DNA from: a virus
Strand: one strand, 5' to 3'
DNA: 39,169 nucleotides
IMG/VR virus record: IMGVR_UViG_3300004184_000002
Span: 1-39,169 of that record
Shown: positions 19,815 through 20,298 of the stretch, piece after piece
How the letters are laid out: each line of letters begins with the position of its first letter
How positions within the stretch are numbered: position 1 is the stretch's first letter
Translations under genes and position numbers: made by a program
The notes under the pieces: model-generated
What the model was told of the DNA's origin: nothing
Databases searched by the model: none
What the model saw: only the letters and a program-made list of their open reading frames with translations

Positions 19815-20013
19815 AACCTCGACTCCTCAGTTTACCATCCCAATCCAACCGGGTACCGTCAAACTCCCCGGACTCAATAACTTTACCCGATTTTAACTCC
19901 ACCAAAATTGCCTCAGGTTTGCCAAATTGTTCCGACAGATTAGCCAGAAACTCAGCAACATCAGGCGCTTCAGCCTTTATCAACTCCCACTGTTTGCGTT
20001 TTTCTTCACTCAT
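19801..20013 (-). CDS. Small protein of unknown function upstream of Q, 70 aa
   Basis: A 70-aa charged protein. It has an N-terminal helix (EEKRKQWELIKAEAPDVAEF), FGKPEAILVELKSGKVI, then FDGTRLDWDGKLRSRGYG. No family recognised. The ATG at 20013 lies inside the first inverted iteron pair of the putative origin, so its expression may be influenced by the origin-binding protein. It overlaps Q by 14 bases and is probably co-transcribed with it. Confidence 0.65.
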   Translation of the reverse strand: MSEEKRKQWELIKAEAPDVAEFLANLSEQFGKPEAILVELKSGKVIESGEFDGTRLDWDGKLRSRGYGKH

Positions 20014-20298
20014 CCGTCCTACCTAAGTGGGACGGATTGACAACAGGTTGGACGGCTGCAGCCATTGATAGCCGTGCCTTGTCCCACCGTCCCACTTCGT
20101 CCACCACAAAAATAAACATTTTGTGGAATTGACAGGTCATTGCGCGCGCGCGTGTATGTACGCACGTATGTATGCGCGCGAGGATTACAGGTGGGACGGT
20201 GGGACGGATTAGCCTTAAGCCACAACAGACGAGGCCTGTAGCCGTCCCACTTGGTCAAAAAACAGGTTGGACGAAGTGGGACGAAGTAGGACGGATTA
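20012..20298. other. Putative replication origin: 12 GTGGGACGG iterons around a Z-DNA-type tract
   Basis: This 380-base gene-free stretch follows the primase/helicase gene. A 9-mer like GTGGGACGG recurs at 20027, 20046, 20191, 20199, 20265, 20275 and 20285 on the plus strand. Inverted copies are at 20014, 20081, 20088, 20098 and 20242. The last three plus-strand copies are exactly 10 bp apart. Between the clusters lie an 8-bp inverted repeat (CCACAAAA 20104-20111, TTTTGTGG 20119-20126) and 40 bases of alternating pyrimidine-purine. Iteron clusters beside a primase/SF3 helicase gene are the arrangement of known satellite and phage origins. The minus-strand frame here (20393-20019) looks like a by-product of the repeats. 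Confidence 0.7.
20141..20180. repeat. 40-bp alternating pyrimidine-purine tract (Z-DNA-prone)
   Basis: Every base from 20141 to 20180 alternates pyrimidine and purine: GC-rich repeats at each end and TATGTA/CACGTATGTA in the centre. Such tracts adopt left-handed DNA under negative supercoiling. GTATGTACGC and GTATGTATGC are also direct repeats within it. Confidence 0.9.

Follow-up and report, generated by a model that had tools for sequence, protein, structure and literature searches.

Overall architecture of the locus

The window, i.e., the whole stretch of DNA analyzed (39,169 nucleotides), is a complete 39 kb virus record and corresponds to a temperate phage, with an integrase, a CI-like repressor, and a large terminase among its genes (Table 1). 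A primase-helicase is encoded on the minus strand, and an array of short repeats lies directly 3' of this gene, between its end at 20394 and the start of the next plausible gene at 20013, located at the last repeat; a Q-like antitermination gene, assigned by PHROG, lies downstream of the array. The next gene encodes a 70-residue product, the expression of which could be influenced by helicase binding at the last iteron. In addition, the short conserved motif CAGRGATCGG is found just past the helicase stop codon both in the window and in a dozen relatives, where its distance from the stop is +1 to +37. A 124-aa minus-strand ORF (20019-20393) runs over the array but matches no Pfam or PHROG family and was rejected as a gene, leaving the stretch effectively gene-free. 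Rfam searches returned no matches, and a nucleotide search with the array among named phages was likewise negative.

Table 1. Features of the window and of its repeat array, in window coordinates.
Feature	Position	Strand	Method	Remarks
Large terminase	16307-17974			
70-aa ORF	19801-20013	minus		start codon adjoins last iteron
Whole origin-like array	20014-20294			281 bp, directly 3' of helicase gene; 12 iterons, 6+6 about alternating tract
Iteron 1, GTAGGACGG	20286-20294	+	plain search, motif calling	outer cluster, helicase-proximal half
Iteron 2, GTGGGACGA	20276-20284	+	plain search, motif calling	
Iteron 3, GTTGGACGA	20266-20274	+	motif calling	
Iteron 4, GTGGGACGG	20242-20250	-	plain search, motif calling	
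Helicase-proximal spacer	20208-20241			between outer and inner clusters; weak RAASCC box form
Iteron 5, GTGGGACGG	20199-20207	+	plain search, motif calling	inner cluster
Iteron 6, GTGGGACGG	20191-20199	+	plain search, motif calling	inner cluster
Alternating purine/pyrimidine tract	20141-20180			40 bp, uninterrupted, Z-DNA-prone, array center
AT-rich inverted repeat, CCACAAAA-N7-TTTTGTGG	20104-20126			possible DNA unwinding element
Iteron 7, GGTGGACGA	20097-20105	-	motif calling	inner cluster, most degenerate
Iteron 8, GTGGGACGG	20087-20095	-	plain search, motif calling	inner cluster
Iteron 9, GTGGGACAA	20079-20087	-	motif calling	inner cluster
Helicase-distal spacer	20056-20078			between inner and outer clusters
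Iteron 10, GTTGGACGG	20047-20055	+	plain search, motif calling	outer cluster
Iteron 11, GTGGGACGG	20027-20035	+	plain search, motif calling	outer cluster
Iteron 12, GTAGGACGG	20014-20022	-	plain search, motif calling	adjoins start codon (20013) of next gene
CAGRGATCGG motif	20351-20360			just past helicase stop
Primase-helicase gene	20394-22727	minus	Pfam, PHROG	777 aa
LuxR/GerE-type small regulator	23526-23897	minus		between helicase operon and CI-like repressor
CI-like repressor	24183-25067			
Integrase	27922-28926			
Tail-tip (gpJ-like) protein	30276-37874	minus		2532 aa, with added DUF7359 domain

The iteron array

A matrix derived from the locus itself was used for motif calling and identifies exactly twelve sites, six on each side of the alternating tract; equally long control stretches within the helicase gene have 0-3 sites for the same motifs. 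Allowing at most one mismatch, GTGGGACGG has 15 matches in the 39 kb, 9 of them inside the 281 bp array; 6.4 matches are expected over the window, and all shuffles remained below 15. The array, drawn as <<<.>--<< / >>>--<.<> with the tract at the slash, displays only approximate mirror symmetry.

The preliminary description of this DNA had placed twelve copies of one 9-mer, in both orientations, at 20012-20298; the number and both orientations are borne out, and all twelve sites resemble GTGGGACGG, but they differ in how well they fit the consensus, the forms including GTGGGACGG, GTGGGACGA, GTTGGACGG, GTAGGACGG, and one GGTGGACGA. The same description had reported (i) three copies phased at 10 bp, which start at 20266, 20276, and 20286; (ii) copies flanking an AT-rich inverted repeat and a Z-DNA-type tract, both of which were found; and (iii) a gene-free stretch directly after the primase/SF3 helicase gene, in agreement with the lack of family matches for the 124-aa ORF. 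The 6+6 arrangement around the tract is an addition to that description.

The primase-helicase

The protein comprises (i) a DnaG/TOPRIM-like primase half (residues ~1-340), (ii) a VapE/SF3-like AAA+ helicase domain (~370-690), and (iii) a predicted C-terminal winged helix (~695-766), with a match to Pfam PF05272 (E 1.7e-74) and to the primase/helicase families of PHROG. In the AF2 model (mean pLDDT 90.4), the predicted winged helix is formed by helices 713-720, 725-728, and 732-744 followed by strands 749-752 and 760-763. The best Foldseek match is 7pds, the PriRep1 protein of a Staphylococcus aureus pathogenicity island (SaPI) with dsDNA (E 3.8e-28), a structure deposited as six chains and also matched at the profile level (E 4.8e-68). 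Other structural matches include the DnaG primase 2au3 as well as NrS-1, SaPI5 7ola, the pox D5/E5 proteins, and AAV Rep40, the latter four, like 7pds, placing the helicase domain within the SF3-like AAA+ fold. The winged helix is proposed to be the iteron binder.

Conservation of the array among relatives

Viral contigs, genome contigs, and named phages yielded the relatives of the helicase, which were reduced to a non-redundant set of 85 loci (labeled L; <85% protein identity to each other). These loci share ancestry, so that the counts given below are not independent events. Most relatives have a comparable array in the corresponding position, built from a different repeat word, such as GGTTGGACGG, GTAGGACGG, GGTATGGAA, and GGTTAGGAA, with GTGGGACAG in Pseudomonas aeruginosa phages, GGGGTGACC in a Marinobacter phage, and ACTGCAACA in a Paenibacillus phage. 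The top 7-mer 3' of the helicase is more repeated than in every control window of its locus in 63/85 loci, and at least six copies of a 7-mer occur there in 52/85 loci versus 4/1448 control windows, the 3' value being the best of several windows, which somewhat favors the 3' side. Since exact 7-mer counting misses degenerate arrays, one of which is visible in L068, the figure of 63 is conservative in that respect. In two loci (L017, 2890-5305, and L018, 2929-5344), two overlapping ORFs, one for each half, replace the fused primase-helicase gene seen in most relatives, and the arrays are still there.

A common layout emerges from the 54 arrays with a usable motif. Twelve is the commonest number of sites at all four thresholds tried, as a mode rather than a rule (range 7-15); the split is exactly 6+6 in 22 of the 54, and the nearest repeats across the tract are opposed in 48/53. 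In the commonest order, the tract is framed on either side by an inner cluster, a spacer, and, farthest out, an outer cluster, the two halves being near mirror images. In most arrays, 23-29 bp separate the outer from the inner cluster, and this spacer contains a RAASCC box that is conserved and usually set 4-6 bp away from the outer repeat. Of 92 spacers, 51 have the box on the strand that reads from outer to inner cluster and 6 have it on the opposite strand, compared with 2.2 in shuffles. The window fits the commonest layout with small variation, its own spacers showing the box in weak form at most.

Repeat words follow the helicase half

Repeat identity covaries with the helicase half and not with the primase half. 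Across 48 loci, iteron similarity correlates with the identity of the AAA+ domain (r 0.72), the winged helix (r 0.70), and, far less, the primase (r 0.29), and the partial correlation is 0.67 for the winged helix given the primase (Mantel p 0.001) against 0.07 for the primase given the winged helix; the AAA+ domain being followed as closely as the winged helix, the correlation does not statistically isolate the reading domain.

The clearest test is provided by natural recombinants in which the helicase half and the repeats were exchanged jointly. L002 and L010 share 84% identity in the primase and 91% in the downstream Q-like protein, whereas their helicase halves and arrays have no detectable similarity; L010 and L008, on the other hand, are 71% identical in the helicase half and 69% over 344 bp of array, with primases only 63% alike. 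As a separate observation, L008, L009, L010, and L100 join the same primase half to a DUF5906-type helicase with its own iterons, constituting natural domain swaps (DUF5906 was called by Pfam for L008 and L100, the loci tested).

These exchanges bear on the alternative of an operator function in place of an origin, in which a phage transcription regulator would bind the repeats, either to repress the helicase operon or to control the Q-like gene. The last repeat adjoins the start codon of the next gene, so a bound protein could affect its expression, and the antitermination gene is indeed downstream; nevertheless, the word travels with the helicase half while the Q-like gene stays, as between L002 and L010, and twelve sites over ~280 bp around a long tract would be unusual for an operator, which makes this explanation improbable. 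The covariation with the helicase also speaks against a packaging (cos/pac) or recombination site. Such a function would suit the position of the stretch, ~1-2 kb from an HNH gene and from the gene that immediately precedes the large terminase, a frequent location of such sites, but the annotated cohesive end of Variovorax phage VarioGold lies beyond the HNH gene, apart from the helicase-adjacent stretch, and we regard this possibility as very remote.

The central alternating tract

A Z-prone tract at the center of the array is a conserved, regular feature. In the window, 0/200 dinucleotide shuffles produced a run of 40 bp, and the maximum among the control windows of the locus is 11. In the relatives, where the tract was measured independently of the repeats, alternating runs extend up to 59 bp; 52/85 loci have one of 15 bp or more 3' of the helicase, versus 15/829 control windows, and in 56/85 loci, against 7.2 expected by length, the first 700 bp 3' of the helicase contain the longest run of the entire locus. 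The tracts are GC-richer than their own loci (0.69 versus 0.57) and slightly enriched in CG steps, a composition that suits Z-DNA better than easy melting; the tract of the window may form left-handed DNA. The AT-rich inverted repeat of the window is paired in the DNA fold, and the lowest-GC segment lies on the helicase-distal side in 34/45 arrays.

The tract could nonetheless be incidental to a genuine origin, as slippage-prone low-complexity DNA tolerated between the sites, with melting confined to the AT-rich segment. CG/CA repeats do expand by slippage, many loci have their AT-rich segment on the distal side, and one subgroup and some arrays contain only short alternating runs; the long runs, however, sit exactly there in the 52 loci and almost nowhere else in the same loci, their GC content and CG enrichment argue otherwise, and about a third of the arrays have no clearly AT-rich stretch. 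This reading, compatible with recognition of the array by the helicase, is credible at slightly less than even odds.

A putative self-recognized replication origin

We consider it very likely, at roughly 0.85, that the array is the replication origin of the phage, recognized by its own primase-helicase in the manner of SaPI Rep/ori. The preliminary description had likewise suggested an origin recognized by its own SF3 helicase, and the position of the arrays in relatives, the tracking of the helicase half by the repeat word, and the joint replacement of the two lend strong support to that suggestion. Its expectation that relatives with the same helicase have iterons holds for close relatives, which do have arrays, but not throughout: a diverged subgroup (about 34-36% identity; e.g., L065, L070, L076, L083, L089, and L094) has few, degenerate TGTCCA-like copies, and no repeats are visible 3' of the gene in Burkholderia phage Mica (32% identity). 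DnaA boxes are absent from the array of the window and number one in 18.8 kb of arrays including those of relatives, a near-absence that fits DnaA independence. The cumulative GC-skew curve was uninformative and lends the origin no support.

In the proposed mechanism, the C-terminal winged helix of the helicase would bind the 9 bp repeats, and each set of six repeats would nucleate a single hexamer, so that the two rings are opposed and replication is bidirectional; two hexamers are probably loaded on the array. The strands would open at the central segment, comprising the Z-prone tract and the small AT-rich inverted repeat. The tract may serve there as a sink or a signal for negative supercoiling, and the opened center would then be primed by the primase half. 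A more far-reaching version concerns a large family of origins in temperate phages: their strands would separate at an alternating tract that forms Z-DNA, which would either replace an AT-rich unwinding element or work alongside one, and supercoil-driven Z formation between the six-repeat half-sites would trigger or gauge the loading of one hexamer per side. This version is tentative and, in our estimate, rather unlikely.

The SaPI-style arrangement in which a helicase reads its own downstream origin would thus extend to a broad set of phages. The dozens of matched enzyme/repeat pairs are a material from which a winged-helix recognition code could be read, the 6+6 repeat count constitutes a concrete prediction on two-hexamer loading, and the conserved Z-prone tract makes the old question of the role of left-handed DNA at origins directly testable.

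Comparison with known origins

The SaPI Rep/PriRep proteins and their ori resemble the window in (i) the self-loading initiator helicase type with a VapE-type AAA+ fold and (ii) the iterons directly 3' of the helicase gene, in two groups flanking a center, the origin role being putative here. SaPI oris have an AT-rich central region; the window does contain a small AT-rich inverted repeat, but the GC-richer alternating tract dominates. Further differences are that the window is a phage and not a satellite, that its primase is DnaG/TOPRIM-like whereas those of SaPIbov1 and SaPI5 are of the archaeo-eukaryotic type, and that it displays 9 bp GTGGGACGG iterons together with a long central Z-prone alternating tract. 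In SaPI Rep, the C-terminal domain recognizes iterons located immediately past the gene of the protein, apparently with two hexamers engaged, and that of the SCCmec Cch2 helicase likewise binds direct repeats immediately past its own gene (PMC7581432). Cch2 and its putative origin differ in having only three 5-nt iterons and a helicase of the D5/SaPI5-like family.

Streptococcus thermophilus phage Sfi21 has an annotated 302 bp origin immediately 3' of its helicase gene, with AGTAAC-type repeats in both orientations around a center and AACCC-like elements beside the repeats; unlike in the window, the helicase is of the D5/DUF5906 type and the center is AT-rich, without a long GC-rich alternating tract. 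Repeats directly 3' of related helicases, also without such a tract, are observed in L107 (3332-3630) and L111 (3284-3630), the corresponding helicase relatives, Staphylococcus phage SAP11 and Streptococcus phage Javan573, having the words TGTTGCATCA and ATGGTACA. The alpha protein of the phage/satellite P4 is a fused primase, helicase, and origin binder with iterons, acting with ori and crr; set beside the window by description and not by sequence, it differs in its two separate sites and its other helicase type.

In the limited literature searched, no description of the 2x6 layout or of RAASCC spacer boxes was found, nor anything joining Z-DNA, iterons, and phage origins, or VapE (virulence-associated protein E) and replication origins. 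As far as that literature goes, the features that would set this probable origin apart within the self-recognized initiator-helicase type are the Z-prone tract conserved at its center, the 2x6 layout, and the RAASCC spacer box.
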